Source: Aequorivita sp. (GTDB lineage Bacteria; Bacteroidota; Bacteroidia; Flavobacteriales; Flavobacteriaceae). Taken from it: DNA of 64,000 nucleotides. The stretch is from NCBI GenBank assembly GCA_024637015.1, contig JAGXGE010000026.1, forward strand, positions 124,001 to 188,000, given 5' to 3'. A model generated the notes under the pieces. That model worked only from the letters and a program-made list of their open reading frames with translations. It was not told where the DNA came from and ran no database searches. Position 1 is the first letter of the stretch, and every line of letters starts with the position of its first letter. This document shows, in pieces, positions 25,055 to 49,209 of the stretch. Both the position numbers and the translations under genes were made by a program.

Positions 25055-28449
<3,395 letters not shown>

Positions 28450-29978: not shown

Positions 29979-30893
29979 ATGATCAATTTAAATATCAACG
30001 ACGAGATTTCAAGATTGCGTGCCGTAGTGCTGGGGCGCGCAGATAGCAATGGCCCAATTCCAAAACTTGAAAATGCCTATGATCCAAAATCTGCCGAGCA
30101 CATTAAGGCAGGCACTTACCCCAAAGATGAAGATATGGTATTGGAAATGGAAGCCGTAGCAGCTGTTTTCAAAAAATATGATGTTAAGGTTTATAGACCC
30201 CATTCCATAAAGGATTATAACCAAATCTTTTCTCGGGATATCGCTTTTGTTATTGATGATAAATTTATAATTGCAAATATTCTCGAAGACCGTTCTATGG
30301 AAATTGAGGCTATTGAACATGTTATCAATCAAATTGACCCTTCAAAGATTATAGAATTTCCTGAAAATGCACATATTGAGGGTGGCGATGTTATGCCCTG
30401 GGGCGATTATATTTTTGTTGGGGCTTATTATGGTGACGATTATTCAAGTTTTATTACTGCACGAACAAACATGAATGCTGTGAAGCATCTTCAGAAATTG
30501 TTTCCGCATAAAAAAGTGAAATCCTTCAATCTTAAAAAAAGCAATACTGTTGCCGATGAAAATGCCCTGCACTTAGATTGCTGTTTTCAGCCTTTGGGTA
30601 AGGGAAAAGTAATAATCCACAAAGAAGGGTTTTTGATTGAGGAAGAGTATGAATGGCTCATTAATTTCTTCGGAATAGAAAATTGTTTTCATATCACAAA
30701 GCAGGAAATGTATAATATGAACAGTAATATTTTCTCCATTTCGCCAGACGTTGTCATTTCAGAAAAAAACTTCACAAGATTGAATGCCTGGCTCCGTAAA
30801 CAAGGTTTTACCGTAGAAGAAGTGCCTTATGCTGAAATTTCCAAACAGGAAGGGTTGCTTCGTTGTACTACGATGCCCTTAATTAGAGATTAA
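29979..30893 (+). CDS. DDAH/amidinotransferase-superfamily guanidine-modifying hydrolase
   Basis: A 304-residue enzyme of the pentein fold related to dimethylarginine dimethylaminohydrolases. These hydrolyse modified or free arginine-type guanidines through a covalent Cys intermediate. The likely catalytic residues are Glu134 and Asp137 in HIEGGDVMPWG, His198 in ALHLDCCFQPLG, and Cys296 in GLLRCTTMPL, eight residues from the C terminus. Full length. The true substrate (methylarginine, arginine, citrulline or another) cannot be told. The last ~143 bases, which encode the catalytic Cys, recur twice downstream (44345-44506 and 48880-49032) at the borders of the accessory region. Confidence 0.85.
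   Translation: MINLNINDEISRLRAVVLGRADSNGPIPKLENAYDPKSAEHIKAGTYPKDEDMVLEMEAVAAVFKKYDVKVYRPHSIKDYNQIFSRDIAFVIDDKFIIANILEDRSMEIEAIEHVINQIDPSKIIEFPENAHIEGGDVMPWGDYIFVGAYYGDDYSSFITARTNMNAVKHLQKLFPHKKVKSFNLKKSNTVADENALHLDCCFQPLGKGKVIIHKEGFLIEEEYEWLINFFGIENCFHITKQEMYNMNSNIFSISPDVVISEKNFTRLNAWLRKQGFTVEEVPYAEISKQEGLLRCTTMPLIRD
30741..30893 (+). repeat. Hydrolase gene tail, copy A (inside the intact gene)
   Basis: Codons for about residues 255-304 of the DDAH-like gene. This is the reference copy of a direct repeat that recurs without gaps at 44345-44506 and 48880-49032. Strong identity covers roughly the last 90 to 143 bases. Confidence 0.9.
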
Positions 30894-30975
30894 AATATTT
30901 TTTTTATTTAAAATACTTTCTGCAGAAAACAAAAATTTAGTTGTGCTTCTATTATTTCTGAATATAATACAATCA

Positions 30976-31323
30976 GAAAACTAGTATAAAATTACAGCTC
31001 ATTATCAGATCTTTAAAAACCAACTCACTTTCTCCTGTTTTAGGGTTGTAAACTGTGAGTTTTGCTAGTGTAAATCCAAATAATAAGCGCCCATTTTTGA
31101 GTGTTATTATGGGGCTTTGTTCTGTAATATTAATTCGGTTTGCAAATTCAGGTAGTAATGTTGTATGTCCATCTCGCAGCCTTATTTTAACTAATGATTC
31201 GTTAACGGTGTATGCATATTCCTTATTTAAATCCATAGTAAAAAAACGGGCTCCATCTAAGGGTACCGTGGTTTCACTATAATCACTCCATAATTCAAGT
31301 TCCCTTTCCGCAGAACTATTTTC
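30976..31323 (-). pseudogene. Fragment of an unrecognised protein
   Basis: A minus-strand frame runs from a stop codon at 31324-31326 down to about 30973 and encodes about 115 residues (ELWSDYSETTVPLDGARFF ... KLTVYNPKTGESELVFKDL). The only ATG (31236) falls in the middle of the sequence, and the residues ahead of it still look protein-like. This suggests the C-terminal part of a truncated gene rather than a complete small protein. YNPKTGESELVF resembles a propeller or regucalcin-like blade, but I do not recognise the family. Confidence 0.4.
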
Positions 31324-31607
31324 TCAGAATTCACCGTTCGTATATAATCAATATTTCCCAAATAGACTAGGTAGCGGGCACACATGTTGTTATTTCAAAA
31401 AAAGCAATCCCGATGAGCAAAGCGATGCGCACGTAACTTCTTAAGCGATTGCAAATCATATAATTACCCTTCGATAAACAAATTTCTCTCTTCGGACACT
31501 AATTAAGTGCGTTCGTCCTAAAGCGTTTTCAATTTTCTTTGACTATCAGTTATTTAGATGCTCCCCCCAACTTTTATTTCAAATAACCATTTAAATCATT
31601 CAAAATT

Positions 31608-31721
31608 TTGAAAAGTGTACTCTTTTTTGGATTTGCAATATTCCTTTCAATGTCCACTTGCCAAAAACAAGAAAAGTGGTATACCCAACAATCGCCAGAA
31701 ATTGAAACTTATAACCAGTAA
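31608..31721 (+). pseudogene. Truncated lipoprotein N-terminus
   Basis: A 37-codon frame from TTG at 31608 to TAA at 31719-31721 reads as a lipoprotein signal (KSVLFFGFAIFLSMSTCQKQ) followed by EKWYTQQSPEIETYNQ. The YTQxSPEIET stretch recalls the mature N terminus of small SnoaL/NTF2-like flavobacterial lipoproteins. The rest of the protein is missing, so I read this as a 5' remnant of a decayed gene. The family assignment is tentative. Confidence 0.4.
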
Positions 31722-31942
31722 ATAATCCCTACACAATGAAGCAAAAAATTGTTACTGAACTTGGGCTTTTGGATATAGAAAAAATCATCTCAGACTTGGA
31801 AGTATAGCAATTAAGAACAGAATGTACTTCAAAAAACATGGATAGTGATGTCCAATTTTGATAAAGAATTAGAAAACCATACAAATTATATTCAAGCTGA
31901 ATTAAAGAAAAAAATTAACTAACCAGTTTAAATTTTGCAATT

Positions 31943-32428
31943 ATGAAATCGAAAATCACACCAATCGTTTCTTCCCTATCTATTTTAATCTTCTTTCTAG
32001 GTGCAGCCGTTCTGGCGCAATCTCCAATGCAGGTAGCTCCAAAAATGCAGCAAGTAAAAGCAATACCTGCCCAAGAGGAAATGGAAGTGCCAGCAACTGA
32101 AAATGTACCAAAAGCTAACGTTTCAAAAACAGTTGATAAAACTTCAGAAATGCAAGTTGCTCCTATGGCAGATCTTACAGATCCAAAACAAGCCGCTATT
32201 GAAAAAAAGCGTTTACAAGCACAGCTTAAAAAATTGGAAGCTCAAGAAGCACAAAGTGCAGCAGCTAGAAAAGAGCGTGATAAGATAACTGTTCTGGTAA
32301 AGAAAAGATTAGAGCGCTCAAACAGTAAAAAGCAAATCCAATCTAATACAAAAGGAGCTTTGCAAAAAAGTAATGCAGCACAAGAAGCTTCAGGGAAAGC
32401 TGAATCCAAAGACAAGAATGGTCAATAG
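31943..32428 (+). CDS. Small secreted Gln/Lys/Ala-rich protein of unknown function
   Basis: A 161-residue protein I do not recognise. The N terminus (MKSKITPIVSSLSILIFFLG..AAVLAQ) is a signal peptide. The mature part has two copies of a short motif, SPMQVAPKM and SEMQVAPMA (about residues 27-35 and 68-76), then a charged Lys/Glu/Gln-rich segment (about 85-140) likely to be a coiled coil, and a polar tail. No T9SS domain and no lipobox are seen, so it is predicted periplasmic or exported. It stands 55 bases upstream of the giant S8 gene in the same orientation, so it may be a partner or assembly factor of that protein. Confidence 0.7.
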   Translation: MKSKITPIVSSLSILIFFLGAAVLAQSPMQVAPKMQQVKAIPAQEEMEVPATENVPKANVSKTVDKTSEMQVAPMADLTDPKQAAIEKKRLQAQLKKLEAQEAQSAAARKERDKITVLVKKRLERSNSKKQIQSNTKGALQKSNAAQEASGKAESKDKNGQ

Positions 32429-32483
32429 ATACTTGATCAGCTAAAAATACATATACACTTCACTAACTAATCAAATTAACGTT

Positions 32484-35400
32484 ATGAAAAACCTCACCTT
32501 TTTATTTATATTCACCTTTTTCTGTAATGTAGTCTCGGCACAACAAAAACATTCGGTTGAATTTCAAGGAATAACAATCGAAATGCCAGAAAATATAAAG
32601 GGCTTCCAATGGGCTAATCTTCCCAAATCTGCACAACTAGCGAATGGTTATGTAGGTTGGATTCAGTTTTATGAAATTCCGCAACAAAACGTTCAAGATC
32701 GTTTCAAAAATCGAAATTTTGACCTTTTAGAGTATATAGGAAACAAAACCTATTTGTTTTATACCACAGGTTCAAATGGCGTACAATTTCTGCGAAATAA
32801 CGGGGTGCGTTCGATAATTCCAGTACAGGGAAACACGAAACTTTCAGAGAATTTACGCAACGGGAATATTGAGCCCTATGCCATACAAGGCGATAAGCTC
32901 TTGGTAACCTTAGAACACAATACCTTAGTAAGTACAAACTTTGTAATAAGTGATTTGGCTGAAAAGCAAATTTCTGTCGCTCAACAATACAAAGCCACTA
33001 ATATTATAGATTTAATAATCCCTAACAACTGTTTGGATGCACTTGCAGAATTACCGTACGTGAAGTGGGTGGAACTTATTGTAGCCCCATCTGTACCAGA
33101 CGATACAAGAGGTAGAAATCTTCACCGCGCTAGTGGTTTGGACACACAAACCTCTGCAGGTAGAAACTATACAGGCGATGGCATAGGAGTTATGGTTCGC
33201 GACGATGGTATTGTAGGCCCTCATATTGATTTTCAAGGTAGAATTGACAATAGTAACGCAACAGGTACCGGGCAAACACACGGTGATGGTGTAGGAGGGA
33301 TTATGGCAGGCGCTGGAAATTTAAACCCTTCTATTAGAGGTATGGCTGCAGGATCTGACGTTTTTGTGGTGAATTATCAACCCAATTTCTTGGACACAGC
33401 AACCACCACTCTTATTAATGATGGGAGTGTTCAAATTACCAACTCTTCCTATAGTAACGGATGTAACGCCGGCTATACAACCATTACCCGAACGGTAGAT
33501 ACGCAAACACACGATATTACTTCCTTGCTACACGTCTTTTCTGCTGGTAACTCGAACAATAATGAATGTGGATACGGAGCCGGAAACCAATGGGGAAATA
33601 TAACAGGCGGACATAAACAAGGAAAAAATGTCATTACAACGGCCAATGTGTTTTTTGATGGTACGCTTGTAAATTCAAGCAGTAGAGGGCCTGCGCACGA
33701 CGGTAGAATAAAGCCAGATATTACTGCAAATGGACAAAACCAACTTTCAACAAGCGAAAACAATGGCTACCTTACTTTTGGAGGAACCTCGGGTGCTGCT
33801 CCAGGAATTGCAGGAGTTTCTGCTCAGTTATACGAAGTATATGGAGACGCCAACGGAGGTACTTTCCCGCCTTCTGGCCTTGTGAAAGCAACATTGCTAA
33901 ATACTGCAAACGACTACGGAAATGTGGGCCCAGACTACAAGTTTGGTTGGGGTATTGTAAATGGTTTACGCGCTGCCAAACTTCTGGAAGACAACCGCTA
34001 TTTAACAAGTTCTATCTCTCAAGGAACTACAAACACGCATAGTATTTCTGTGCCTTCTGGTACTACGCAAGTACGATTTATGGTGTACTGGACAGATGAG
34101 CCTGCTACAAGTGGTGCCACTACAGCATTGGTAAACGATTTAGACCTTGTAGTCACAGCCCCTTCCTCTACACCGTATGAGCCATGGATCTTGGATCCAA
34201 CACCTAATCCTATAAACTTGGACGCACCAGCAACCAACGGTCCAGATCACCTTAATAATGTAGAACAAGTTCTAATTAATAATCCTGCTGCTGGAACTTA
34301 TAATCTAGATGTTTCTGGATTTAGTGTGCCCATGGGGCCACAAGAATATTTTGTAGTATACGAAATGATTGAAGAGGAGTTAACCCTTACATATCCAAAT
34401 GGTGGCGAAAAATTTGTACCGGGTACTGTAGAAACTATTCATTGGGATGCCATAAATACTACAGATAGCTTTACAATAGAATATTCTATAGATAATGGAG
34501 GTTCTTGGACTCCAACCACTACAGTTCCAAATACAACAACCAATATAGACTGGACAGTACCTTCACAAATTACAGGGGATGCATTAATTAGAATTACAAG
34601 TGGAAGTTTTCAGGATGTAAGTGATGTAAAATTTTCGATCGCTACTCAGCCAACCGGTTTACAATATACTATCGTATGTCCGCAAAGTGCAAATTTTTCT
34701 TGGAATGCTGTTGCTAACGCAGAATTATATGACGTCTATTTATTAGGTGCTGAAACAATGGAAGTAGCAGGCACTACTTCGAACACTTTTATAAGTGTGC
34801 CTATTGTAAATGGCGAAGAACCACTATGGGCTGCTATAGTTGCAAAAAACGCTACTCAAGGTTGGGAAAGCAGAAGGACAATAGCTATTAATAACACAGG
34901 ATTTCTTAACTGTAGTCTTTCAGATGATATTGGGATTGAAATACTAAATACTCCATCGGATTTTGAATTGGAATGTTCTGGGGGGTCAGAGGTGACTATT
35001 TCGGTACGACTTCAAAGTTTTGGATCACAACCTCAAAGTAACTTTACCTATTCATATCAGTTAGATGATGGAGCTATCATACAAGAAACATATACAGGAA
35101 CGCTTGCAAGTGGTCAAAATGTTACGATTGATTTTGGGACTCCGCTAACATTTCTTGCAAATGGAAATTACACCCTAAATACCGCAGTAAATTTAGCTGG
35201 AGATGAAAACCCATTCAATGATACAGACACATTAGATTTCTTTATGACTTTAGAGCCTACGGCCTTAGATTTTGAAGAAACTTTTGAAACCAACGGTTTC
35301 CCTCCAAGTGGATGGACACTTAATAACCCAGATAATTCCACAACTTGGCAACAACGTGATAATGTAGTTGGAAGTGATGGAACTACAACTACAACCGCCT

Positions 35401-38400
35401 TTATGGATGGTGCGAATTATTCTGCAAGTGGACAATTAGATACCTTCACATTAGAGTATATTGATTTACAAGGAGCGACAGGAACCTCACTAAGTTTTGA
35501 TTTGGCGAAAGCACAATGGTCAACAGCTTACAATGATAGACTCGAAGTTGAAATTTCTATCGATTGTGGTGCAACCTTTACGAATATCTATAGTAAAGAT
35601 GGTCTAACGCTAGCCACGGTACCCTACATTAACGCTGCTTGGACACCAAGTTCTTCTTCAGATTGGAGAACTGAGAATTTGAGCCTAGCAGCATATGAAG
35701 GACAAATTGTCCAAATTCGGTTTATTAATGTGAATGACTATAGTAATAATACGTTTATAGATAATATAAAAGTAGATGGCATTGTTATCAATCAAGAACC
35801 TACAAGAGTATCACTAGCTGGTGGGGAACTTTTAATTGAAGATATAGTAGATAAAGACGATACACTTACTATTACTTATGGAGGAGGCATATATACCATA
35901 ACCGATACGAATGGAGGCTTTATAAATACTATGGTTCCAGGAAGTATGGGGGACGGCACAGCTACTGTGACAATACCAGAAGCCGGTGTAACCAGTATTT
36001 TGGTAAACACCATAGGTGGTGATGACTTACTTACAGTAGATTATTCCGGTGGAAACTTTGCTGTTCCAATTGCCTATAATGGCGGAACACATACAAACGT
36101 ACCAGGGGATTTAATGATGCTATCTGGAGGACCTACATTCACTGGAGTGACTCATACTTTTGTGAATGCTAACGACGGTAGTGTAGCTGTGGCTGGAAAC
36201 GGCTTACTTACCTATACAGGTTTAGAGCCTATTGTAGATAACTTAAGTGCTACAGATAGAGTATTTAACTTTACAGGCGGCGCCGAGACCATTACATTAG
36301 ATAATGGGGGTACCTTAGTCAATCAAATAGACTCAACGCTAGGGGAGAGTGTCGATTTTAACAACCCAAGTGGCTCTTTAACCATTAATACAGAAGTTGG
36401 GGTAGGTACAGGAGCAGATATTTTAAATATTGAAGGGCTGGATGCAAACTTTGATGCAGATTTAACAGTAAATAGCGGTAATGATGACAACGTAAATTTC
36501 CTATTGAATCCAACAGCTATAGCTTCAGGAGATATTGCTGTAACTACAGGAATTCTGAACATTAGCCAAGACATTGCCACCACAGGAAATATAAACCTAA
36601 CTTCAGAAAGAAATACAACTATAAATAACAACGCAACACTATCTATTACAGATGGAGCTATTACTATGCTAGCTGGAACCACTCCAGTTGTTGGAGATGT
36701 TTATAAGGGAATTTTACTAGAAAACGGAAACCTTAGTGCTACCTCAGGAGCTATTACACTTACAGGTACAGGCAGTAATGATGGTGTAAGTAGCAGAACC
36801 CAAGGTGTTTTTGTTACAGGAGCTTCTTTACTAGAAACAACTACAGGAGAGATTACAATTACAGGAACAGGGGCATCCTCTGGATTAGATAGAATGTCTG
36901 GTATTCGAATAAACGATAATGCAGCCAATGCAGCTATATTACGATCTGTAGATGGAACTATTACTTTAAATGGGACAGGAGGAAATGGAACAAGTGACTT
37001 TAATGTAGGAGTAGTTATTGACGGTTTAAACCCTATACAATTAACAGGGAATGGATCTCTAGATGTTACTGGGCAAGGAGGTGCGGGAGCTCAAGCTAAT
37101 TATGGTATTGGTATACAAACGGCAACTGTATCAGTGGCAGATGGTACCATTACCCTAAATGGAACTTCGGGTAACGGCAGCAGTAATTTTCAAGCAGGAG
37201 TATCCATTGGTTTTGATGCTTCTTTGCAAATTTCTGGACCTGGAGCAATGAACATTACTGGTTCAGGAGGAAATGGTGTAGATGCCGGTTATGGCGTCTA
37301 TGTTTTTAACAATGCAAGTTTATCAGTTTCAAGTGGAGCTATCAATTTAATTGGAACTGCAGCCAATGGAACAGGTAATTTTAATTCAGGAGTAAACATA
37401 AGTACGGGAGCTACTATAGAGGCCACAGGAAATGGTGCTATTACTATAACAGGTACAGGAGCTGCTGGAGTACAAAATAATCGAGGAGTTCTTTTAGGAG
37501 AAACATCCATTACAACTGCAGGAGGAGGCACTTCCATTACTGGACAAGGAGGAACGGGTGATTTAGGTGTCACTGGGATTATAATTTTTGATAGTACAAC
37601 AATTGCAGATACAGCTGATGGTGCTATTGTGCTTAATGGCACTGCGGGCGTAGGTATTCAGCAAAATTCGGGGGTATTATCTCTTGGAACCATACAGTCT
37701 TTTGATGGACCTATCTCCATTACAGGGGTTGGGAATGGAACCGCTAATAATAACCAAGGTGTTGCTTTAAGAGATACAGCTTTAATTGAAAATTTAGGTG
37801 AAGGTTCAATTTTAATAGATGGCCAAGCTGGAAATGGAAATGACCTATTCAATATTGGTGTTTTAAGTTCAGGAACTGTAAGATCTATAGATGGTGGTAT
37901 AACAATTATAGGCCAAGGAAATGGAACCAATAATGAAAATCACGGTATTAACATTTTTGAAAATGGTCTAGTTGAAAGCACTGGGGATGGCGCTATATCT
38001 TTTACAGGTACAGGCGCAAATGGTTTTAGAGAGAATATTGGTATTCTACTTGATGGAGTAGCACCACGGGTTTTGTCATACAATGGTGCTGTTACATTTA
38101 ATGGTGTTGGAGGTAATGCTACTGATAATTTTAATTCAGGGGTTGCCCTCGAAGAAGGAGCAACTATTGCTTCCTCAGGAACTGGAGCCATCACCTTAAA
38201 TGGTACAGGTGTAAACGGCTTTAGTGGAAACAACGGTGTTGTCATAGAAGGAACAACTACTTCGGTTGCCTCAAATGGTGGTGGTATTTCAATGACTGGT
38301 ACTGGTGGTACTGGTGGTGGTAATCTTAATGTTGGGATACGAGTAGATGGAGCTACTATACTAGATCTAAGTAGTACAGGCAGTATATCTATAGATGGAA

Positions 38401-41400: not shown

Positions 41401-44234
41401 CAATTATCGAAGCTACAGGAATGGGCTCAATTAACCTTGTAGGTGAAGGAGGGAATGGTACAGACTATAATGATGGTGTTCGCATTGAAAATTCTTCATC
41501 AGTTACTGCAACGACAGGTGGTATAAACATTCAAGGAATTGGTGCTACTGGAAGTGTTGGCGAAGCAAACATGGGAGTCAATATAGCATCTAATAGTAGC
41601 ATTATTGCGAGTTCCACAAATAATATTAGTATAGAAGGTACAGGTGGTTCGGGTACGCAATTTAACCGCGGAATTGTATTTTCTTTCAATTCAATTACGT
41701 CAAGTGGTGGTAATATTGATATCATAGCAACAGGTGGAACAGGAACAGGAAATTTTCAAGTAGGACTAACTGCTTTTCCAGGAACCTCCATTAATACCAA
41801 TGGTGCTGGTACAATCGGTATTTTAGGAACTGGAGGAGTAGGCCCAACGACCTTGGATACTGGGATAGAATTAATTGGAACGACGCAGATAACTTCAGAA
41901 AACGGTGCTATTACAATCGATGGTGTCGCAGTAGATGGCTCAATAGGAAATAGAATTGAAGCGACTATTACAGCAACAGGTACGGGAAATGTTTTCTTAA
42001 ACGGAACAACTACAAGTGCCACTCAGGCTGCAATCAATATTTTAAATGATAACACAACAATTACTGCCGGAGGAAACATAACCGCAACAGCCAATATAGG
42101 GAAACTAAATACCCCAGCCGAAATACCTGGGCATGCAATATTTGAAGCTACAAATACTATAATTAATGGCATTCTTGCACCCGGGCAATCTCCAGGTCAA
42201 TTAACGGTAAATGGAAACTTTACAATGAGTTCCGGAGATACCGCGGAAATTGAAATAAACGCGATCACAACTCCAGGAACAGATTACGACCAAATTAAAG
42301 TTACCGGAACCGTAGATATTAGTGGTGCAACGTTATCATTAATAGATAATATTCCTGGCGTACTTGTCGAAGGAGCCGAAATCATTATCATTGCCAATGA
42401 TGGTGTCGATGCGGTGGTAGGAACCTTCGACGGATTAACAACGACCACACCAATACCTTTTAACGAGCAGTTTGTATTCGTACACTATGATGGCGGCGAT
42501 GGAAATGATGTGTCACTCGTGGTAGATTCTATGCCAACAGCTATTTGCCAGGATTATACAGTTCAGGTAGATGCTTCAGGAAATGTAACTATTTTGCCGT
42601 CTGATATAGACAATGGCTCTTTTGACCCGGATGGACCTGTTACCCTATCGGTAAGTCCAGACACCTTTGATTGTAGCGCAGCGGGCATTCCGCAAATTGT
42701 TACCTTAACCGTGACAGATAACACCGGAAATACAGATACCTGTGAAGCTACGGTAACCATAGAAAAGCGTCCTACAACGCTAACATATAGCGGAGATCTT
42801 GTAGAACAGTATTCCGATCAAGTAGACCTATCGGCCACCTTGGTGGATGTAGATGGAATCTCTTTAGAAGGCAAAACGGTATCCTTTACTATTGGAACGC
42901 AATCCATAACTGCACTCACCGATATAAATGGTCTCGCCGAAGCCACCTTGATCTTAACACAAGACCCTAACATAACTTATACGGTAGCAACTGAATTTAT
43001 AGAAGATGATTGTTACTTAGGTAGTACAGTTTCAGTTGATTTCGACATAACCCAGGAAGATGCGATTGTAGCATATACAGGACAAACATTACAAGCAACC
43101 CCTAGTGAAAACGAATCTGAAGCGCTTGTCGTTCTAAGTGCCAACATACAGGACATCACGGTAACCGATTTTGCAAACGATCCTTTTGAAGGGGATATTC
43201 GCAAGGCAATGGTGATGTTTGTGAAAAGACTAGACAATGGTGGTATCGAGGATATTTCAGGTTGGCTCCCTGTTGAAAACCTTATCGATCCAAACGATCC
43301 TACAACGGGAACCGTTAGTTATGATTGGATGGTTGACCTACAAAACCAAGATTCCGAAAGCTTTACCGTAGGAATACTCGTGGGGTCTTTGGACGACAAT
43401 GGGTATTATCTCAGGGATGATTCCGATGATTATACGGTAGTTACGGTATACAAGCCAGTGGGTGACTTTATCACGGGCGGTGGAAATATTATTCCAGATA
43501 ATTCAGCTGGACAATATGCTTCTACAGATGGATTGAAAACCAATTTCGGGTTCAACGTTAAATTCAATGCTGGTGGTCGTAGACTAAAAGGACATATGAA
43601 CGTGATTTTTAGAATACTTGAAGTAGACGGGGTTCATACCTATCAAATAAAAGGAAACGCCATACAATCCTTAGGGGTGGATGTAGGAGATCCTGCTAAT
43701 AAAATAGCAGAGTTTATTACCAAGGCGAACCTTAAGGACATCACCGACCCTAATAACCCTATAAGTTTAGGGGGTAACCTATTGCTCAAGGCAGACATGA
43801 CAGATAAAGGTGAACCTGGGGATGCTGACTCCATCGGTCTTACCCTTACAACATCCAATGGAGAATTACTATACTCTAGTGATTGGACTGGAATTGAAAC
43901 CCAGGAGATGGTTCTTGCTGCTGGAAATATAGTTGTACATAGTGGCTTTAGCTCTAAAGGGTTATTATACACCGATGATATGGCGCTAACCTTAGCTGGA
44001 ATTAGTTTGTATCCAAACCCTGCCAAAGAGCAGGTAACAATTGGTAATTCAAATAATCTGGAGCTTGATGAAGCCGCCATTTACGATCAAAATGGTAGAT
44101 TAATATACCGCATAGATCTACGAGGAATGGGCGTAACCAAGACAGTGAGCTTACAAGAAATGGCTGCCGCTACTTACGTGGTGATCATTAAAGGTAAAGA
44201 TGGAGAGATTACCAAACGATTATTGAAAGAATAG
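32484..44234 (+). CDS. Giant T9SS-exported S8 (subtilisin-like) protein with duplicated beta-helix passenger
   Basis: A 3916-residue secreted protein. Order of parts: signal peptide (1-19, ending VVSA); S8 serine-protease domain with triad Asp240 (VMVRDDGIVG), His266 (THGDGVGG) and Ser436 (GGTSGAAPG); beta-sandwich segments (about 634-915), one starting LTYPNGGEKFVPGTVETIHW; a jelly-roll/cleaved-adhesin-like domain (about 926-1097, FEETFETNGFPPSGWTLNN); passenger module 1 (about 1106-2338) and its paralogue module 2 (about 2339-3348), each rich in 31-33 residue repeats of the type GxITLNGTGGxG...NxGVxI; an HYR/Ig-like pair (about 3352-3515); a conserved module shared with the downstream M36 protease; and a type A T9SS domain (about 3838-3916, ISLYPNPAKEQVTI). 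All three catalytic residues are present, so it may be an active surface protease, possibly an adhesin-protease. The reading frame is unbroken over 11.7 kb. Confidence 0.9.
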   Translation: MKNLTFLFIFTFFCNVVSAQQKHSVEFQGITIEMPENIKGFQWANLPKSAQLANGYVGWIQFYEIPQQNVQDRFKNRNFDLLEYIGNKTYLFYTTGSNGVQFLRNNGVRSIIPVQGNTKLSENLRNGNIEPYAIQGDKLLVTLEHNTLVSTNFVISDLAEKQISVAQQYKATNIIDLIIPNNCLDALAELPYVKWVELIVAPSVPDDTRGRNLHRASGLDTQTSAGRNYTGDGIGVMVRDDGIVGPHIDFQGRIDNSNATGTGQTHGDGVGGIMAGAGNLNPSIRGMAAGSDVFVVNYQPNFLDTATTTLINDGSVQITNSSYSNGCNAGYTTITRTVDTQTHDITSLLHVFSAGNSNNNECGYGAGNQWGNITGGHKQGKNVITTANVFFDGTLVNSSSRGPAHDGRIKPDITANGQNQLSTSENNGYLTFGGTSGAAPGIAGVSAQLYEVYGDANGGTFPPSGLVKATLLNTANDYGNVGPDYKFGWGIVNGLRAAKLLEDNRYLTSSISQGTTNTHSISVPSGTTQVRFMVYWTDEPATSGATTALVNDLDLVVTAPSSTPYEPWILDPTPNPINLDAPATNGPDHLNNVEQVLINNPAAGTYNLDVSGFSVPMGPQEYFVVYEMIEEELTLTYPNGGEKFVPGTVETIHWDAINTTDSFTIEYSIDNGGSWTPTTTVPNTTTNIDWTVPSQITGDALIRITSGSFQDVSDVKFSIATQPTGLQYTIVCPQSANFSWNAVANAELYDVYLLGAETMEVAGTTSNTFISVPIVNGEEPLWAAIVAKNATQGWESRRTIAINNTGFLNCSLSDDIGIEILNTPSDFELECSGGSEVTISVRLQSFGSQPQSNFTYSYQLDDGAIIQETYTGTLASGQNVTIDFGTPLTFLANGNYTLNTAVNLAGDENPFNDTDTLDFFMTLEPTALDFEETFETNGFPPSGWTLNNPDNSTTWQQRDNVVGSDGTTTTTAFMDGANYSASGQLDTFTLEYIDLQGATGTSLSFDLAKAQWSTAYNDRLEVEISIDCGATFTNIYSKDGLTLATVPYINAAWTPSSSSDWRTENLSLAAYEGQIVQIRFINVNDYSNNTFIDNIKVDGIVINQEPTRVSLAGGELLIEDIVDKDDTLTITYGGGIYTITDTNGGFINTMVPGSMGDGTATVTIPEAGVTSILVNTIGGDDLLTVDYSGGNFAVPIAYNGGTHTNVPGDLMMLSGGPTFTGVTHTFVNANDGSVAVAGNGLLTYTGLEPIVDNLSATDRVFNFTGGAETITLDNGGTLVNQIDSTLGESVDFNNPSGSLTINTEVGVGTGADILNIEGLDANFDADLTVNSGNDDNVNFLLNPTAIASGDIAVTTGILNISQDIATTGNINLTSERNTTINNNATLSITDGAITMLAGTTPVVGDVYKGILLENGNLSATSGAITLTGTGSNDGVSSRTQGVFVTGASLLETTTGEITITGTGASSGLDRMSGIRINDNAANAAILRSVDGTITLNGTGGNGTSDFNVGVVIDGLNPIQLTGNGSLDVTGQGGAGAQANYGIGIQTATVSVADGTITLNGTSGNGSSNFQAGVSIGFDASLQISGPGAMNITGSGGNGVDAGYGVYVFNNASLSVSSGAINLIGTAANGTGNFNSGVNISTGATIEATGNGAITITGTGAAGVQNNRGVLLGETSITTAGGGTSITGQGGTGDLGVTGIIIFDSTTIADTADGAIVLNGTAGVGIQQNSGVLSLGTIQSFDGPISITGVGNGTANNNQGVALRDTALIENLGEGSILIDGQAGNGNDLFNIGVLSSGTVRSIDGGITIIGQGNGTNNENHGINIFENGLVESTGDGAISFTGTGANGFRENIGILLDGVAPRVLSYNGAVTFNGVGGNATDNFNSGVALEEGATIASSGTGAITLNGTGVNGFSGNNGVVIEGTTTSVASNGGGISMTGTGGTGGGNLNVGIRVDGATILDLSSTGSISIDGTGGSSSDVSVGVFFRADASIITNGGGIAMIGQGGSGPGDFNAGIMTQETVTITDTAMGDISLNGTGGSGVNTAGGIFLYNTAVTSVDGSLSAIGMGGTGTEDYANGIYMQDSALDTGSGNITLDGTGGAGDALNSGILSFTSSFNTTDGAIQMTGEATDVTGDFNQGIGLVDNLIEATNGAISLVGTSGDAANPGIEIASTNSPITAGSTITVTTNVGVLNTPEGIPATAVFEAATTSINGTIAPGPSVAYAVTNTIGQTTITGDFDLTAGSLEVEIENLTIAGIDFDQIVVNGLVDITGATLTLVDNFAGVGTPSDVIILIDNDGVDAVTGTFTGLPEGASINFNEETWFIYYAEGDGNDVALRFRPINILVDAGGNLVFTDIVGEDDELTIIKEGTNYRISDPNKPVIAGEGAIQDGDEVVVPIASVTGDININTLNGDDSLNVDLDGGDFEDTINYNGGNQNTSPGDSMLLSSAGMYTNVTHNFINESDGFVDVTGNNTINYTGLEPILDNLNAADRVFNFTGGAETITVNAGGTLDNQIDSTLGESVDFNNPTTSLTINTEVGGGSGADTVNMEGIALGFDADLTINGGADDVVNFQTNPTAIGTGNLTATGLGIFVFQNITTSGLGAIDFTANRNIYVQPLATVSSQDGAITFIANSSGALSATQDFDAILINGEVNTSGTGSIDFTGNGGSTGATEFNIGIAVEGANAKVETTGTGAITMTGTGGSGSSNNSGVMVSFGGLIAANGSAIDITGNGGSDGFGIHNIGVRLRVNGTISNTGAGTISLNGTGADNGNSNYGVQALGGSIVSAVNGEITLNGTGGNGAHANQGLRIEGAGTKITTIDGGITLNGTGGNATGNNNEGVTIILDALIEATGSGAINITGNAVSGLNLNKGVVFFNADMSSAGGGITINGTGGGTNNNNLGISIEGGSVIEDTLDGNISLTGSGAAGVDFNIGVDITGGSFIRINDGDISIMATGGNGTGNNNLGLRNSGGSIIEATGMGSINLVGEGGNGTDYNDGVRIENSSSVTATTGGINIQGIGATGSVGEANMGVNIASNSSIIASSTNNISIEGTGGSGTQFNRGIVFSFNSITSSGGNIDIIATGGTGTGNFQVGLTAFPGTSINTNGAGTIGILGTGGVGPTTLDTGIELIGTTQITSENGAITIDGVAVDGSIGNRIEATITATGTGNVFLNGTTTSATQAAINILNDNTTITAGGNITATANIGKLNTPAEIPGHAIFEATNTIINGILAPGQSPGQLTVNGNFTMSSGDTAEIEINAITTPGTDYDQIKVTGTVDISGATLSLIDNIPGVLVEGAEIIIIANDGVDAVVGTFDGLTTTTPIPFNEQFVFVHYDGGDGNDVSLVVDSMPTAICQDYTVQVDASGNVTILPSDIDNGSFDPDGPVTLSVSPDTFDCSAAGIPQIVTLTVTDNTGNTDTCEATVTIEKRPTTLTYSGDLVEQYSDQVDLSATLVDVDGISLEGKTVSFTIGTQSITALTDINGLAEATLILTQDPNITYTVATEFIEDDCYLGSTVSVDFDITQEDAIVAYTGQTLQATPSENESEALVVLSANIQDITVTDFANDPFEGDIRKAMVMFVKRLDNGGIEDISGWLPVENLIDPNDPTTGTVSYDWMVDLQNQDSESFTVGILVGSLDDNGYYLRDDSDDYTVVTVYKPVGDFITGGGNIIPDNSAGQYASTDGLKTNFGFNVKFNAGGRRLKGHMNVIFRILEVDGVHTYQIKGNAIQSLGVDVGDPANKIAEFITKANLKDITDPNNPISLGGNLLLKADMTDKGEPGDADSIGLTLTTSNGELLYSSDWTGIETQEMVLAAGNIVVHSGFSSKGLLYTDDMALTLAGISLYPNPAKEQVTIGNSNNLELDEAAIYDQNGRLIYRIDLRGMGVTKTVSLQEMAAATYVVIIKGKDGEITKRLLKE
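35799..39498 (+). repeat. Passenger module 1 of the giant S8 protein
   Basis: Encodes residues about 1106-2338. It consists of a lead-in (TRVSLAGGELLIEDIVDKDD ... VFNFTGGAETITLDNGGTL), the short-repeat array, and an exit segment (FEAATTSINGTIAPGPS ... ITGATLTLVDNF ... VDAVTGTFTGLP). The same order recurs in module 2 at 39499-42528, so the two arose by an internal tandem duplication. Confidence 0.85.
36747..39015 (+). repeat. Short-repeat array 1 (about 24 units of 31-33 residues)
   Basis: About 24 diverged units, for example GTITLNGTGGNGTSDFNVGV, GAINLIGTAANGTGNFNSGV and GDISLNGTGGSGVNTAGGIF. The pattern is a short strand ending in Gly-Thr-Gly-Gly, a polar turn with Asn-x-Gly-Val, a second strand and a Ser/Thr-rich third strand. 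This spacing suits coils of a right-handed parallel beta-helix. Confidence 0.85.
39499..42528 (+). repeat. Passenger module 2 of the giant S8 protein
   Basis: Encodes residues about 2339-3348. Lead-in (INILVDAGGNLVFTDIVGED ... VFNFTGGAETITVNAGGTL), array and exit segment (FEATNTIINGILAPGQS ... DISGATLSLIDNI ... VDAVVGTFDGL) follow the same order as module 1. Some stretches are nearly identical in protein (STLGESVDFNNP), but most are clearly diverged, so the duplication is not recent. Confidence 0.85.
40458..42045 (+). repeat. Short-repeat array 2 (about 16-17 units of 31-33 residues)
   Basis: Units such as GEITLNGTGGNGAHANQGLR, GGITLNGTGGNATGNNNEGV and GNISLTGSGAAGVDFNIGVD follow the same pattern as array 1. 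There are fewer units, so the arrays have gained or lost coils since the module duplication. Confidence 0.85.
42541..44234 (+). repeat. Shared C-terminal module, copy 1 (in the giant S8 gene)
   Basis: This part (residues about 3353-3916) is paralogous to 47108-48763 in the M36 gene. Shared landmarks are TVEKRxTTxTYxGD, SATLVDVDxIxLxG, GDFITGGG, LKTNFGFNVKFN, VDGVHTYQIKGNAIQSLGVD and the T9SS domain ISLYPNPAKEQVTI. DNA identity is high in the last 300 bases. Confidence 0.9.
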
Positions 44235-44264
44235 ATTTAAATAATTATTAATTATTAGAAATAG

Positions 44265-44297
44265 ATAGCCCGAGGAACTTCCTCGGGCTATTTTTTA
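44265..44297 (+). terminator. Rho-independent terminator after the giant S8 gene
   Basis: A 12-bp stem (ATAGCCCGAGGA at 44265-44276 with TCCTCGGGCTAT at 44280-44291) and a T run. Nearly the same stem follows the M36 gene at 48791-48816. Confidence 0.9.
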
Positions 44298-44344
44298 TTT
44301 GATTTTCAGATTATTTCTTGAACCAAACCTCTAGACTTTGAATA

Positions 44345-44506
44345 TCGCCTTTCAATATCTTTTCAGGAATAAACTTCAAATGATTAATTACTTGGTTACC
44401 CGAACAAGGTTTTACGGTAGAAGAAGTGCCTTATGCTGAAATTTCCAAACAGGAAGGATTATTGCGTTGTACTACCATGCCTTTGGTTCGTGACCCAATG
44501 AGCTAA
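44345..44506 (+). pseudogene. Hydrolase gene tail, copy B
   Basis: A gapless match to the 3' end of the DDAH-like gene (30741-30893), extended by three codons before its own TAA (44504-44506). The last 35 codons read QGFTVEEVPYAEISKQEGLL, then RCTTMPLVRDPMS. They keep the catalytic Cys and differ from the intact gene almost only at silent sites. The first ~60 bases are poorly conserved and hold an in-frame TGA at about 44378. There is no gene body upstream, so this is an orphan 3' end. Confidence 0.88.
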
Positions 44507-45205
44507 GTTTTTCTTACCATCTATTAAAATAATCTCATTTTATAATAATTTGTCTAGGATTGACTACTTAAAACTGTGGCTTTTGGGAAAAACTTTTTTA
44601 GAGCTAAAAAAATTATTAAATAGTGTGACTAGTTTCTATCACATTCTTGCTTAAAAACAGATAACGCAACCAATAGCTTCTAAGTGTAATGGGCGTGATC
44701 AAAACTGTGAGTATACAAGAACTGCCAGTTACTAATTTTTTAATAAAAATTCCTTTCAGTAGAAATTTAGGAAGGGTTTTATCTTTTTCTAAATATTTAT
44801 AAATTCTTGAATTTTTGTACGAATAAAATACATTTTTTTTTAAATTACGTATACTACGTTTGTTTATTTTGAAATAAAGTATTATCTTTCAGCTAGTTAA
44901 ATATTAAAAAGCAATGATAGGGTTGCTTGTTTAAGTATTTTGTTTCCATCAGGAAAATAACAGGATTATCCCTAGTTTTTTATATTTAACAGCCTTTTAA
45001 GATTAAAGAAACCTGTCAGAAAATTATATTTTTTATTCTCCTCTTCTAGTGATTCAATATAATTTTGGGTTTTAATTTTTAGACTATTTATCTCCTCAGC
45101 TTTTAAAGCAAATTGTGCAATTCAGCACTGATTAAATAATTATAAAACACACATTATATAAAACTGCCCCCATAACGTTTATTGTCTAACCAAAATTTTT
45201 AAATT
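44507..45205. other. AT-rich non-coding spacer before the M36 gene
   Basis: About 700 bases without a convincing reading frame on either strand. An exact -7 consensus, TACGTTTG, lies at 44855-44862 but lacks a clear -33 box and is about 340 bases from the M36 start codon. No inverted repeat with a T run and no recognisable gene remnant were seen beyond hydrolase tail copy B at its left edge. Confidence 0.55.
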
Positions 45206-48200
45206 ATGAAACAGTTTACAATTCTCTTGATGTTGTTTTGTATGCCAGTTATTCAGCTTTCTGCACAGAACAAAAACCCAGAAAAAGAAAATCAACAGAA
45301 AACGGAAGAGCAGTCTTCTATTTCTCTTGAAAATCTTATTATGCAAAAAAGTAATACTTATGTGATTACTAAAGAACATGTTAGCAGCATTAGTGGCATT
45401 CGTCATGTTTATTTGAGACAAGCCATTGATGGATTGGAAGTTTGTGGAACCGAATCCAGTGTGCATTTTGACAAAACCGGAAAAGTGTTAACCGAACACA
45501 ATAAGTTTTTGGCAGATATACAGGCCACTCTTAAAAATAGTTCACAGAGTTTAAGTGCTCGTGCCGCTATTATTTCGGTAGCAAACCAAATGGGATACAA
45601 AATTTCTAATCTTCAGGAAATAAAAAGTATCGGAGGTATAAACAAAGCTGCAGTTTTCAATAAAGCAGATATATCTTTGGAAAATATACCCGCCAAATTG
45701 ATGTATTATTATAAAGAAGGCATTGGCACCCAATTGGTGTGGGAGCTTTCCATAGCTGAGAAAAATTCTTCGGATTGGTGGAATTTTCGAGTAGATGCAT
45801 CCACTGGCCAAATTATTGACAAAGATAATTGGACAAGTGAGTGTGTAATTGAACACAATCATGATAATGAAGTAATAGGTTTGAATTACAATTCAAATCT
45901 TTTTGATATTCCTAATTATAATAAACCTGCTACAAATTCTGTAATTCTTAATGAAGTAGATGGTATTGGAACCTATAATGTGTACCCCATGCCAATTGAA
46001 TCTCCATATTTTGGATCCAGATCATTAGTTGTAGGCCCAGAGAATGCCATTGCCTCTCCTTTTGGGTGGCATGATACAGATGGTGTGATAGGTGCAGAGT
46101 TCACAAACACTAGAGGTAATAATGTTAGCGCTTGGGACGATGAAGATGCAAATGATTTACCTGATGGTGCATATACTGTTAGTCCAGGAGGAGATTTAGT
46201 TTTTGATTTCCCATTAAATACTACTTATTCCGCTGGCGATCAATCTACGGATGCCGCAACTACTAATTTGTTTTATTGGAACAACATTATTCATGATGTT
46301 ATGTATCAATACGGTTTCGATGAGGCAGCGGGTAATTTTCAAGAAAATAACTATGGTAATGGAGGCTTAGGTGGAGATTCTGTAAATGCATTAGCGCAAA
46401 GTGGATTGGGTACTTGTAATGCTAATTTTGGAACACCAGCAGATGGGAGTAATCCTAGAATGCGAATGTACGTATGTAATACAGAGGATGGTGATTTAGA
46501 TAATTGGGTCATAATCCATGAATATGGGCACGGAATTCATAGTAGATTAGCTACTACAAGTGGAGCAGAGCGAATGAATGAAGGTTGGGGAGACTATTAT
46601 GGTTTAATGCTCACTATGCAATCCTCAGATGTTGGTACAACGGGTAGAGGATTTGGAAGTTTTGCTTTTCAATTTGTTTTTCCTGGTACAGGTGGCGCTA
46701 GAACACAGCCCTACAGTACGGATTTTTCAATTAACAATTATACTTATGATAGTATAAAATCCGAAGTTGCTCCCCATGGAGTTGGGTCGGTTTGGGCCAT
46801 GATGCTTTGGGAAATGACATGGGAGCTTATTGAAATTCATGGTTTTGACACCGATTTTTATAATGGTACAGGAGGTAATAATATCTCACTAGCTTTAGTT
46901 ACAGAAGGCCTAAAATTACAAGTTCCCGACGCAGGGTTTGTGGATGGTCGAGACGCAATTTTGTTAGCAGACCAAGTTATGTATGGTGGAGCCAATCAAT
47001 GTGCAATTTGGGCAGCATTTGCAAGAAGAGGTTTAGGGGTAAGCGCAGATCAAGGCTCCTCAGCAAGCAAAACTGACGGCACCGAAGCTTTTGATGTTCC
47101 AAATCCACCCGTGGCTGTTTGTGTAGCTCCTTTTGCAATTATGGTCGATTCCAACGGAGATGCAGTTATTACTGGTGCCGATATTGATGGAGGAAGTATT
47201 GCTCCTTGTGGAATTGATACCATTATAGCGAGCCCAAATTCATTTACCTGTGCAGATGTGGGTGATCATGTAGTAACTTTGACCGTTACCGATATATTTG
47301 GATTTGAGAGTACCTGTACCACGGCTGTTACCGTTGAAAAGCGGTCAACAACCGTTACTTATACAGGCGATATAGAGGGGCAATGTACTGACCCAATAGA
47401 TCTCTCTGCGACCTTGGTTGATGTAGATAATATTCCATTATCTGGTAGAACTATCACTTTTACTCTTGGAACCCAATCTACAACAGCAAACACAGACGGA
47501 AGTGGCGTAGCTTCAACAACAATGATATTAGATCAAGAACTAGGAAATTATACGGTAAAAGCTGAATTTATGGAAGAAGCCTGTTACCTGGGAAGTTTTG
47601 ATGAACCTGCTTTTGAAATCCTAGGTGAAGATGCTATTGTTGAATATACCGGACATACAGTACAAGCAACACCCGATGAGAATACTTCTGAAACTACTGT
47701 AGTCCTAACTGCAAATATTCAAGAAGTGTTCGATGACTATCCTGGAGATATTAAGGATGCGCTGGTTAAATTTGTGAATAGAGATGATGGCACGGACATA
47801 TCCGGATGGATTCCTGTGACCGATCTTTTAGATCCAAGTGATCCAACACTAGGAACGGTTAGCTATGATTGGTTGGTTGATATTGGAAATTCGTCATCAG
47901 ACTCCTTCACAGTAGGGATAATTGTTGGAGGATGTTACACCCGTAATAGTTCCGAAGACGATACTATAGTAACTGTATATATTCCAGTAGGCGACTTTAT
48001 AACCGGAGGTGGTTTTATAAACCCAGATAACTCTGCGGGAACTTATGCTTCTACCCCTGGTTTGAAAACCAATTTTGGATTTAATGTAAAATTCAATAAT
48101 AGTGGCCGTAAACTGAAAGGTCATATGAATATCATCTTCCGAATTCAACAAGTAGACGGTGTTCATACCTATCAAATAAAAGGGAATGCAATTCAATCTC

Positions 48201-48763
48201 TTGGCGTGGATATTGAAGACCCAAACAATATGTTGGCAGAATTTGCAACTAAAGCTAATTTAACGGATATCACTGATCCATTAAATCCAATAGGCCTTGG
48301 TGGGAATCTTAGATTAACGGTTGATATGACAGATAGAGGTGAGCCAGGAATAGACGATTCCATTGGTATAAATCTAACTACTGCCAACGGTATATTATTA
48401 TATTCAAGTAATTGGTCTGGGATTGCTACTGAAGAAATGGTTCTTTCTGGAGGAAATCTTGTTGTACATAGTGGTTTTAGCTCTAAAGGGTTATTATACA
48501 CCGATGATATGGAGCTAAATTTAGCTGGAATTAGTTTGTATCCAAACCCTGCCAAAGAACAGGTGACCATCGAAAATTCACAGAACTTAGAGCTTGAAGA
48601 AGCCGCCATTTACGATTTAACGGGTAGATTATTACACTGTATAGATCTGCGAGGAATGGGCGTAACCAAGACAGTGAACTTACAGGAACTGGCTGCCGCT
48701 ACTTACGTGGTGATCATTAAAGGTAAAGATGGACAGATAATCAAGCAACTGTTGAAGGAATAG
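45206..48763 (+). CDS. T9SS-exported M36 (fungalysin-type) metallopeptidase
   Basis: A 1185-residue secreted zinc peptidase. Parts: signal peptide (about 1-21, ending LSAQ); an FTP/PepSY-type propeptide (about 45-210, with IRHVYLRQAIDGLEVCGTES) expected to keep the enzyme inactive until cleaved; the M36 catalytic domain with the zinc-binding HEYGH (438-442) and third ligand Glu459 in ERMNEGWGDYYG; then the Ig-like, conserved and T9SS sorting modules (about 635-1185) shared with the giant S8 protein. Usual M36 proteins of this phylum are shorter, so the long C-terminal module is an addition. The active-site residues are intact. It stands alone, with a long AT-rich spacer upstream and a terminator downstream. 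Confidence 0.92.
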   Translation: MKQFTILLMLFCMPVIQLSAQNKNPEKENQQKTEEQSSISLENLIMQKSNTYVITKEHVSSISGIRHVYLRQAIDGLEVCGTESSVHFDKTGKVLTEHNKFLADIQATLKNSSQSLSARAAIISVANQMGYKISNLQEIKSIGGINKAAVFNKADISLENIPAKLMYYYKEGIGTQLVWELSIAEKNSSDWWNFRVDASTGQIIDKDNWTSECVIEHNHDNEVIGLNYNSNLFDIPNYNKPATNSVILNEVDGIGTYNVYPMPIESPYFGSRSLVVGPENAIASPFGWHDTDGVIGAEFTNTRGNNVSAWDDEDANDLPDGAYTVSPGGDLVFDFPLNTTYSAGDQSTDAATTNLFYWNNIIHDVMYQYGFDEAAGNFQENNYGNGGLGGDSVNALAQSGLGTCNANFGTPADGSNPRMRMYVCNTEDGDLDNWVIIHEYGHGIHSRLATTSGAERMNEGWGDYYGLMLTMQSSDVGTTGRGFGSFAFQFVFPGTGGARTQPYSTDFSINNYTYDSIKSEVAPHGVGSVWAMMLWEMTWELIEIHGFDTDFYNGTGGNNISLALVTEGLKLQVPDAGFVDGRDAILLADQVMYGGANQCAIWAAFARRGLGVSADQGSSASKTDGTEAFDVPNPPVAVCVAPFAIMVDSNGDAVITGADIDGGSIAPCGIDTIIASPNSFTCADVGDHVVTLTVTDIFGFESTCTTAVTVEKRSTTVTYTGDIEGQCTDPIDLSATLVDVDNIPLSGRTITFTLGTQSTTANTDGSGVASTTMILDQELGNYTVKAEFMEEACYLGSFDEPAFEILGEDAIVEYTGHTVQATPDENTSETTVVLTANIQEVFDDYPGDIKDALVKFVNRDDGTDISGWIPVTDLLDPSDPTLGTVSYDWLVDIGNSSSDSFTVGIIVGGCYTRNSSEDDTIVTVYIPVGDFITGGGFINPDNSAGTYASTPGLKTNFGFNVKFNNSGRKLKGHMNIIFRIQQVDGVHTYQIKGNAIQSLGVDIEDPNNMLAEFATKANLTDITDPLNPIGLGGNLRLTVDMTDRGEPGIDDSIGINLTTANGILLYSSNWSGIATEEMVLSGGNLVVHSGFSSKGLLYTDDMELNLAGISLYPNPAKEQVTIENSQNLELEEAAIYDLTGRLLHCIDLRGMGVTKTVNLQELAAATYVVIIKGKDGQIIKQLLKE
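47108..48763 (+). repeat. Shared C-terminal module, copy 2 (in the M36 gene)
   Basis: Residues about 635-1185 of the M36 protein, aligned end to end with 42541-44234 in the giant S8 gene. The similarity continues past the stop codon through the terminator and spacer into the hydrolase tail. Confidence 0.9.
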
Positions 48764-48786
48764 TTCTTCATAATTATTGATTGTTA

Positions 48787-48820
48787 AAAAAAAGCCCGAG
48801 GAATTTCCTCGGGCTTTTTT
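48787..48820 (+). terminator. Rho-independent terminator after the M36 gene
   Basis: AAAGCCCGAGGAA (48791-48803) pairs with TTCCTCGGGCTTT (about 48804-48816) around a minimal loop, with a T run after and an A run before, so it could also work in reverse. It is the paralogue of the terminator at 44265-44297. Confidence 0.9.
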
Positions 48821-48879
48821 ATGTGCTTTTCAAACTATTTATTGAAACAAACCTTTAAACTTCGGTTATTGGTTTTATT

Positions 48880-49032
48880 TCTCCTTTCATTGTCATTTCA
48901 GAAAAAAACTTTATAAGATTGAATACTTGGCTTCGCGAACAGGATTTTACGGTAGAAGAGGTGCAATACGCCGAAATTTCCAAACAGGAAGGCTTGCTTC
49001 GTAGTACTACCATGCCTTTGGTTAGGGATTAG
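48880..49032 (+). pseudogene. Hydrolase gene tail, copy C
   Basis: A gapless match to 30741-30893. The frame is open for 48 codons from about 48889 to TAG at 49030-49032 (IVISEKNFIRLNTWLREQDF ... LLRSTTMPLVRD), with about 40 of 48 residues identical to the intact protein. The catalytic Cys codon has become Ser (AGT). Like copy B it has no gene body upstream; the sequence ahead of it is the M36 terminator spacer. Confidence 0.88.
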
Positions 49033-49209
49033 TATAAAATTTTTAGTTTAAACAACCAGCTTTTCGAATTATTGGGAGTGTGCAATCTGTAAGGAATTGT
49101 AACTAATTGTTATTCCTATTAAATAAAGGTTCAATGGGTTATTTAACAAAAAAATCGTCTCTACTTTCACAAAAAATTAGTAAACTTGGCGTATCAAAAT
49201 TTTAACACT
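49033..49209. other. Spacer with likely DPP IV promoter
   Basis: About 180 AT-rich bases between hydrolase tail copy C and the DPP IV gene. TACTTTC at about 49162-49168 resembles a -7 element (TAnnTTTG) with TTTA about 19 bases upstream. It would place transcription start near 49175. The match is imperfect. Confidence 0.35.

Follow-up and report, generated by a model that had tools for sequence, protein, structure and literature searches.

Repeated ends of a DDAH-family gene beside two secreted-protease genes in Aequorivita: a shared 3' unit and a probable integrase-free insertion

Background

In the genome of Aequorivita sp. (assembly GCA_024637015.1), the end of one metabolic gene occurs three times within about 18 kb, which raises the question of how the end of a gene can come to stand at two further places where the rest of the gene is absent. 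The stretch under study, called the window below, comprises 64,000 nucleotides of contig JAGXGE010000026.1 (positions 124,001 to 188,000 of the forward strand), and all coordinates given without a contig name count from its first letter. It carries an intact gene of the DDAH/arginine-deiminase family (PF02274, 304 aa; 29979-30893, forward strand), followed by two genes for secreted proteases, P1 and P2, and then by the gene for DPP IV. The last approximately 150 bp of the DDAH gene, here called the tail, are found in one orientation as copy A, which is the 3' end of the intact gene, and again as copies B and C beyond the two protease genes. A first reading of the DNA, called the original prediction in the following, suggested that the tail could be the anchor of a cassette system. 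In view of the whole evidence we consider it fairly probable that the 18-kb region with the two protease genes was inserted into the DDAH-DPP IV spacer through homology-assisted recombination without an integrase, and that this took place, among 28 Aequorivita genomes, in this species alone.

Results

Three gene ends and an empty site

A search of the whole genome with a 201-bp query from the tail returned exactly three places (E values 3.4e-101, 8.9e-40 and 1.5e-32), and these values exclude chance as the source of the repeats. Copy A lies at 30741-30893, copy B at 44345-44497 and copy C at 48880-49032, all on the forward strand; compared without gaps over 153 bp, A and C agree at 125 bases, A and B at 119, and B and C at 121. 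The original prediction had seen the three copies in the same orientation, and the whole-genome search confirms them, with the coordinates of A and C exactly as it gave them; only copy B, given as 44345-44506, is shorter by our measurement. It had also described the extra copies as lacking a gene body and lying just past a protease gene and its terminator, and this holds as well. A DNA profile of the gene (28 genomes) matches in 30894-49200 nothing of the gene body, only the tails, at profile positions 757-914 for C and 776-911 for B, with one further match that is insignificant (E 1.7), and both copies start about 50-60 bp beyond a terminator that is situated 3' of a protease gene. Further remnants of DDAH in the insert were considered as candidates, and none was significant.

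The comparison with relatives, by which we mean 27 other Aequorivita species (28 genomes with the present one), supports the view that the DNA between A and C was inserted. DDAH is followed by DPP IV in all 27, and POT-family genes come next in 26 of them, the contig of G007 ending before that point. The empty site that the original prediction had led us to expect does exist, for in 16 of the 27 the spacer is no longer than 455 bp. The tail occurs once in each relative, so that none has full hydrolase genes at the places of B and C, and none of the 27 carries the array. Copy C and the DNA following it were aligned by eye with 15 of the 16 short-spacer relatives, and the native spacer (49033-49185, forward strand) matches along its full length in 13 and in part only in the other two (G026 and G008); by the same kind of alignment, the DNA 3' of A and 3' of B is unlike this spacer. 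Since C is joined to the native spacer, on the DPP IV side, and A and B are not, copy C marks the place at which the gene originally ended, and the 18 kb from A to C are the inserted DNA that had been proposed.

The same spacer, compared at loci L064-L088, L092 and L093, is variable across the genus. It measures about 0.97 kb in five relatives, all with a gene of 266 aa, and 1.7-1.9 kb in five others, all with an mgtE-like gene (Pfam was run on one example of each of these two genes), and it reaches 10.3 kb in one, with an mgtE-like gene and an efflux cluster that was named by eye. Different contents are thus found between the same conserved flanks, as in a recombination hotspot, and none of these 11 longer spacers contains an extra tail. 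In a family-wide search of 397 genomes, the tail was found in 334, with three copies in the present genome and two each in G123 and G373.

A shared 3' unit that begins inside the protease genes

P1 (32484-44234) encodes a subtilase (S8) of 3916 aa and P2 (45206-48763) an M36 fungalysin of 1185 aa, both on the forward strand and both with a C-terminal sorting domain (CTD) of the type IX secretion system (T9SS). The homology between the surroundings of B and C starts inside these genes and runs through the CTD, the stop codon, the terminator and a linker into the tail. When the codons for identical residues are compared between P1 and P2, Met and Trp omitted, they agree in 109 of 250 cases upstream of 43880 and in 75 of 91 after it (Fisher 7e-11), the split having been picked after the homology alignment of the two genes had been made; the best change point, 43905-43911, was reached by 0 of 2000 permutations. 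In the stretch from the stop codon to about 50 bp into the tail, the P1 and P2 regions have the same base at 124 of 155 positions. As judged by codon agreement, these results show that the unit so delimited, unit U, has a common origin much younger than the remaining homology of the proteases. Its copy 1 (43908-44497) consists of the CTD, stop, terminator (44265-44297), linker and tail B, and its copy 2 (48437-49032, with its left edge set by aligning it with copy 1) of the CTD, stop, terminator (48788-48820), linker and tail C, all on the forward strand, each terminator being recognizable in the sequence as an inverted repeat with a T run.

Because the homology runs from within the proteases and changes at 43905-43911, the recent common part is about 600 bp long, and the DDAH tail is, on this alignment, its right edge and not an independent site; about 440 bp of the recent homology between B and C lie upstream of the tail and extend into coding sequence. 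The idea of the tail as the anchor of a cassette system is thus left without support, since the repeated unit begins inside the protease genes, since no second tail accompanies the longer spacers (0.97-10.3 kb) of 11 relatives, and since relatives of the proteases elsewhere have no DDAH tail nearby, as a search for protease genes followed by orphan tails made clear. Phages and plasmids gave no close match to the tail either, nor viral contigs to the gene. A stretch similar to that after the stop codon was seen, in a comparison by eye, behind 7 of 35 T9SS gene ends, those of P2 and of the loci L171, L103, L113, L115, L121 and L130; these genes have different types of CTD, and the stretch lies between stop and terminator.

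The homologous C-terminal region of P1 and P2 would also fit a tandem duplication of a DDAH-protease block from which the extra enzyme bodies were deleted later, and tandem duplications are common. We nevertheless regard such a history as unlikely, since the peptidase domains of P1 and P2 belong to unrelated families, the gene profile finds no remnant of an enzyme body in the insert, and each of the 27 relatives has the tail only once.

Searches for an integrase and for mobile elements

Another way to obtain the repeats would be two successive site-specific integrations of elements that bring a replacement 3' end, with the integrase lost or acting in trans. Phage 21 uses icd in such a way, the 3' end of the gene being replaced. 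As with an integrative element, the gene is intact, a direct repeat of its end stands at both borders and the original end lies on the far side, and even the mosaic structure of copy B described below would be expected if the second crossover had fallen inside the tail. The original prediction that no integrase is visible stands, as none was seen among the open reading frames (ORFs) of the insert, where no search was aimed at serine recombinases or transposases, and as a search of the own genome with PF00589 gave nine matches to tyrosine recombinases, none of them on this contig. For an integron integrase, likewise, the contig has no PF00589 match, attC sites having had no dedicated search, and the window contains no tRNA. 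Among phages, one distant match to the tail was found (40% identity, E 4e-3), and among plasmids 20 records, all below 60% identity; 14 of the 15 plasmid records listed are annotated as arginine deiminase or its family, and one is without a feature. Viral contigs contain no relative of the full gene product. Recent homology upstream of the tail, within coding sequence, argues against such integrations too, as do the unlike DNA after A and after B and the lack of a tail copy in the longer-spacer relatives, in which the site is not used likewise, and we hold this origin to be improbable. Homology of the DNA after A to that after B was also sought directly, with weak matches as the only outcome. 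Elsewhere in the genome, two tyrosine recombinase matches of equal score stand in opposite orientation 5 kb apart (G000:C1:21941-22459 and 27224-27742).

Mosaic tails and their possible sources

In copy B, 9 of the first 19 codons specify a residue, or in one case a stop, that is unseen in the 27 relatives, and 0 of the next 31 codons do so (p 3.7e-5). The corresponding counts are 3 of 19 and 3 of 31 in copy C and zero in copy A, and when single relatives were held against the other 26 they reached no more than 3 of 19 and 2 of 31. This distribution in copy B shows, at the level of its codons, that two tails are joined in it, one old and non-coding, the other coding-like until later, hence an exchange inside the tail, and recombination within the tail had indeed been proposed in the original prediction. 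At tail positions 6, 7 and 9 (counted from 0), B and C have bases in common that occur in no relative.

It might be supposed that the extra tails are retained for a function, i.e. as antisense RNA, transcription boundary or short peptide, and the 31 codons of B without any residue unseen in relatives are in line with that. The idea is hardly credible in view of the nine unseen codons that precede them, one being the stop, of the loss in copy C of a cysteine which is kept in 27 of 27 relatives, and of the result that no RNA family rises above threshold in 28000-52000. The extra tails are probably passengers without function.

As for the source of tail A, in the trees of citrate synthase, the DDAH body and DPP IV the genome stands beside G027, with support of 98, 95 and 99 in the Shimodaira-Hasegawa-like approximate likelihood ratio test (SH-aLRT), and the tree of the POT2 gene places it with G025, G027 and G012 (97), G004 being nearest by path. 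By identity, tail C is nearest to G027 (130/153) and tail A to G004 (139/153). Informative sites are divided between G004 and G027 as 40:70 in the gene body, 16:4 in A and 6:12 in C, and in tail A the resemblance to G004 sets in at the border of the repeat; for this pair of relatives, the switch from body to tail A has a permutation p of 0.0038. These figures are suggestive of an import of tail A from a donor.

Origin of the protease genes and of their sorting domains

Of 79 genomes searched with a query of 420 aa (E <= 1e-10), the own genome and G032, which belongs to another genus, were alone in matching the module that precedes the CTD; the remaining genomes matched the query only from about residue 291 on. 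Among 25 named loci, the module was found in L184 (70%) and L185 (67%), both from one Saprospiraceae metagenome-assembled genome (MAG), in L198 (66%, a Flavobacteriaceae MAG) and in L186 (57%, identical with G032), and in no Aequorivita locus. The core of the CTD of P2 behaves in the opposite way, with 51-53 of 77 residues identical to Aequorivita genes (own contig C28, G001 and G004), 34 of 77 to L198 and 14 of 75 to L184. In blocks of 30 columns at the CTD, P2 agrees with the own C28 protein in 22/29, 16/30 and 10/13 positions, and with G032 in 8/29, 4/28 and 2/13. Such comparisons show that, in terms of sequence similarity, P2 switches sides at the CTD, the module being of the kind found in other genera and the sorting domain of the Aequorivita type. 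A restriction of the module to one other genus was considered and ruled out by the Saprospiraceae and Flavobacteriaceae MAGs.

For the M36 peptidase of P2, identity reaches 74% with that of G032 and no more than 72% with those of the genus. For the S8 peptidase of P1, the values are 72% to another genus and 71% to a paralogue on the own contig C15, which makes a foreign origin of P1 less clear. Apart from P2 itself, the closest match to its peptidase in the own genome has 54%, and in the sister species G027 an M36 gene is broken up, with one stop and in two pieces (C13:60433-61041).

In a bolder reading, the locus would be a dock for secreted proteins, where the genes of foreign proteases, on entering, give up the sorting signal they came with and take on the resident one with its terminator and flanking gene tail. 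If it were true, each newcomer would become T9SS cargo of the host, and the array would grow by recombination at the shared 3' unit. The presence of the module in other MAGs, joined in L198 to a CTD of the same class, lowers the odds of this reading, and we find it quite doubtful.

Other contents of the locus

To the left, citrate synthase (28629-29915, forward strand) lies directly 5' of DDAH here and in 26 of the 27 relatives, not in G002; to the right, DPP IV (49186-51399, forward strand), assigned with Pfam, is present in all 27. The region 3' of tail A contains, in inverted orientation, a piece from the interior of a two-component regulator/histidine kinase gene (31009-31296, reverse strand; 74% to own contig C28), which is followed by a 90% copy of own contig C2:1524-2173 (31306-31948, forward strand). 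The latter starts with the final 158 bp of a LytTR response-regulator gene, continues through the intergenic region and stops just inside the gene that follows, and thus provides a second orphan gene tail, unrelated to that of DDAH. An ORF of 161 aa (31943-32428, forward strand), with the copied C2 segment as its upstream DNA, has no family match above threshold. Beyond tail B there is a remnant of another CTD coding sequence (44679-44737, forward strand; 73% to the CTD of P1, with 46 bp at 78%, E 1e-4). P1 has a large internal duplication at 36147-42362, where 300-bp stretches 73% alike lie 3.7 kb apart and more pairs lie 3.0 kb apart, together with many short repeats, often about 96 bp or multiples of it apart. 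A ComEC-type competence gene (PF03772) is found near the locus, at 55467-57491.

Discussion

From the empty site, the shared unit, the switch in similarity at the CTD and the mosaic structure of copy B, all of which can be read in the DNA itself, we infer a history in which recombination would proceed by short homologies and ordinary functions of the cell, with no dedicated integrase. First, a protease gene with an Aequorivita-type CTD and its terminator may have become attached, by an illegitimate junction, immediately 5' of the DDAH tail, and at the other end homologous recombination in the tail would have kept the enzyme gene whole; this would be one-sided, homology-facilitated illegitimate recombination. 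A further event, or a gene conversion, would then have given the second protease gene a copy of the 3' unit, and an exchange would have taken place within the tail. At the junctions, tail homology is seen at A and an abrupt start of homology at C. We count in favour of this history the chromosomal fragments inside the insert, including the second orphan gene tail, and the ComEC-type gene nearby.

Several points weigh against it. Beyond weak matches, the DNA after A is not homologous to that after B, although homology would be expected there if one unit had simply been duplicated. The absence of a visible integrase applies to the ORFs of the insert and to tyrosine recombinases (PF00589). The chimerism of tail A is suggestive of a donor and no proof of one, since for 17 of the 27 relatives, too, the tail points to another nearest relative than the body; moreover, other pairs of relatives give stronger breaks elsewhere in the DDAH gene, and in the tree of the tails C is nearest by path to G012, not G027, and a grouping of A with C is not rejected (approximately unbiased test, p-AU 0.44). 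A donor with a protease beside a DDAH tail did not appear, the loci L064-L208 and L209 onward giving DDAH genes and the window's own copies only. Competence of this organism is putative, the ComEC-type gene being its sole sign. Finally, L198 (3621-4913) has the module followed by a CTD of the same class outside the genus, so the fusion of module and CTD need not have arisen in this host.

With these points taken into account, the insertion without an integrase, as we prefer it, offers a readable example of how Bacteroidota may add secreted enzymes without mobile elements, since the parts can be told from each other: a body and module as in other genera, a sorting domain of the type of the genus, and a 3' unit passed between genes. 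It also teaches that direct repeats of a gene end are by themselves no proof of site-specific integration. A literature search found no paper on this locus or on a shared T9SS sorting domain with terminator, which is no proof that none exists. The comparison is made with systems that resemble it in part.

Phage 21 and e14 integrate into icd, and the likeness is that the 3' end of a gene is replaced by an incoming copy with the old end left at the far border; unlike that case, the present locus has no visible integrase, and its repeated unit extends beyond the tail. Hotspots of horizontal gene transfer that lack mobile-element genes and are flanked by recombining core genes have been described (PMC5635113), and the present locus is like them in its variable content between two conserved genes and in having no integrase. 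Breaks do exist in the flanking DDAH gene, which was examined alone and without other core genes for comparison, and the double exchange at both flanks in the hotspot model, as outlined in that source, would not alone leave duplicated gene ends.

Serial additions that leave orphan gene parts are reported for the immunity-gene arrays of the type VI secretion system (T6SS) in Vibrio cholerae, where homology-facilitated illegitimate recombination is proposed (PMC5361080), and for the displacement of C-terminal parts in rhs genes (PMC2935791), and the strings of orphan gene parts in both are the likeness to our locus. In those systems, an upstream anchor is constant and the 3' part varies, whereas here the bodies vary and the 3' unit is constant; and, unlike there, the 3' unit takes with it the end of an adjacent metabolic gene, and the cargo consists of T9SS proteases. 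Homology-facilitated illegitimate recombination itself, as described in PMC3240628, joins one end by homology and the other illegitimately and requires no integrase. The process proposed here would share with it the joining by homology at one end with no integrase, and would differ in being deduced from sequence, in having two rounds, and in involving a shared 3' unit.

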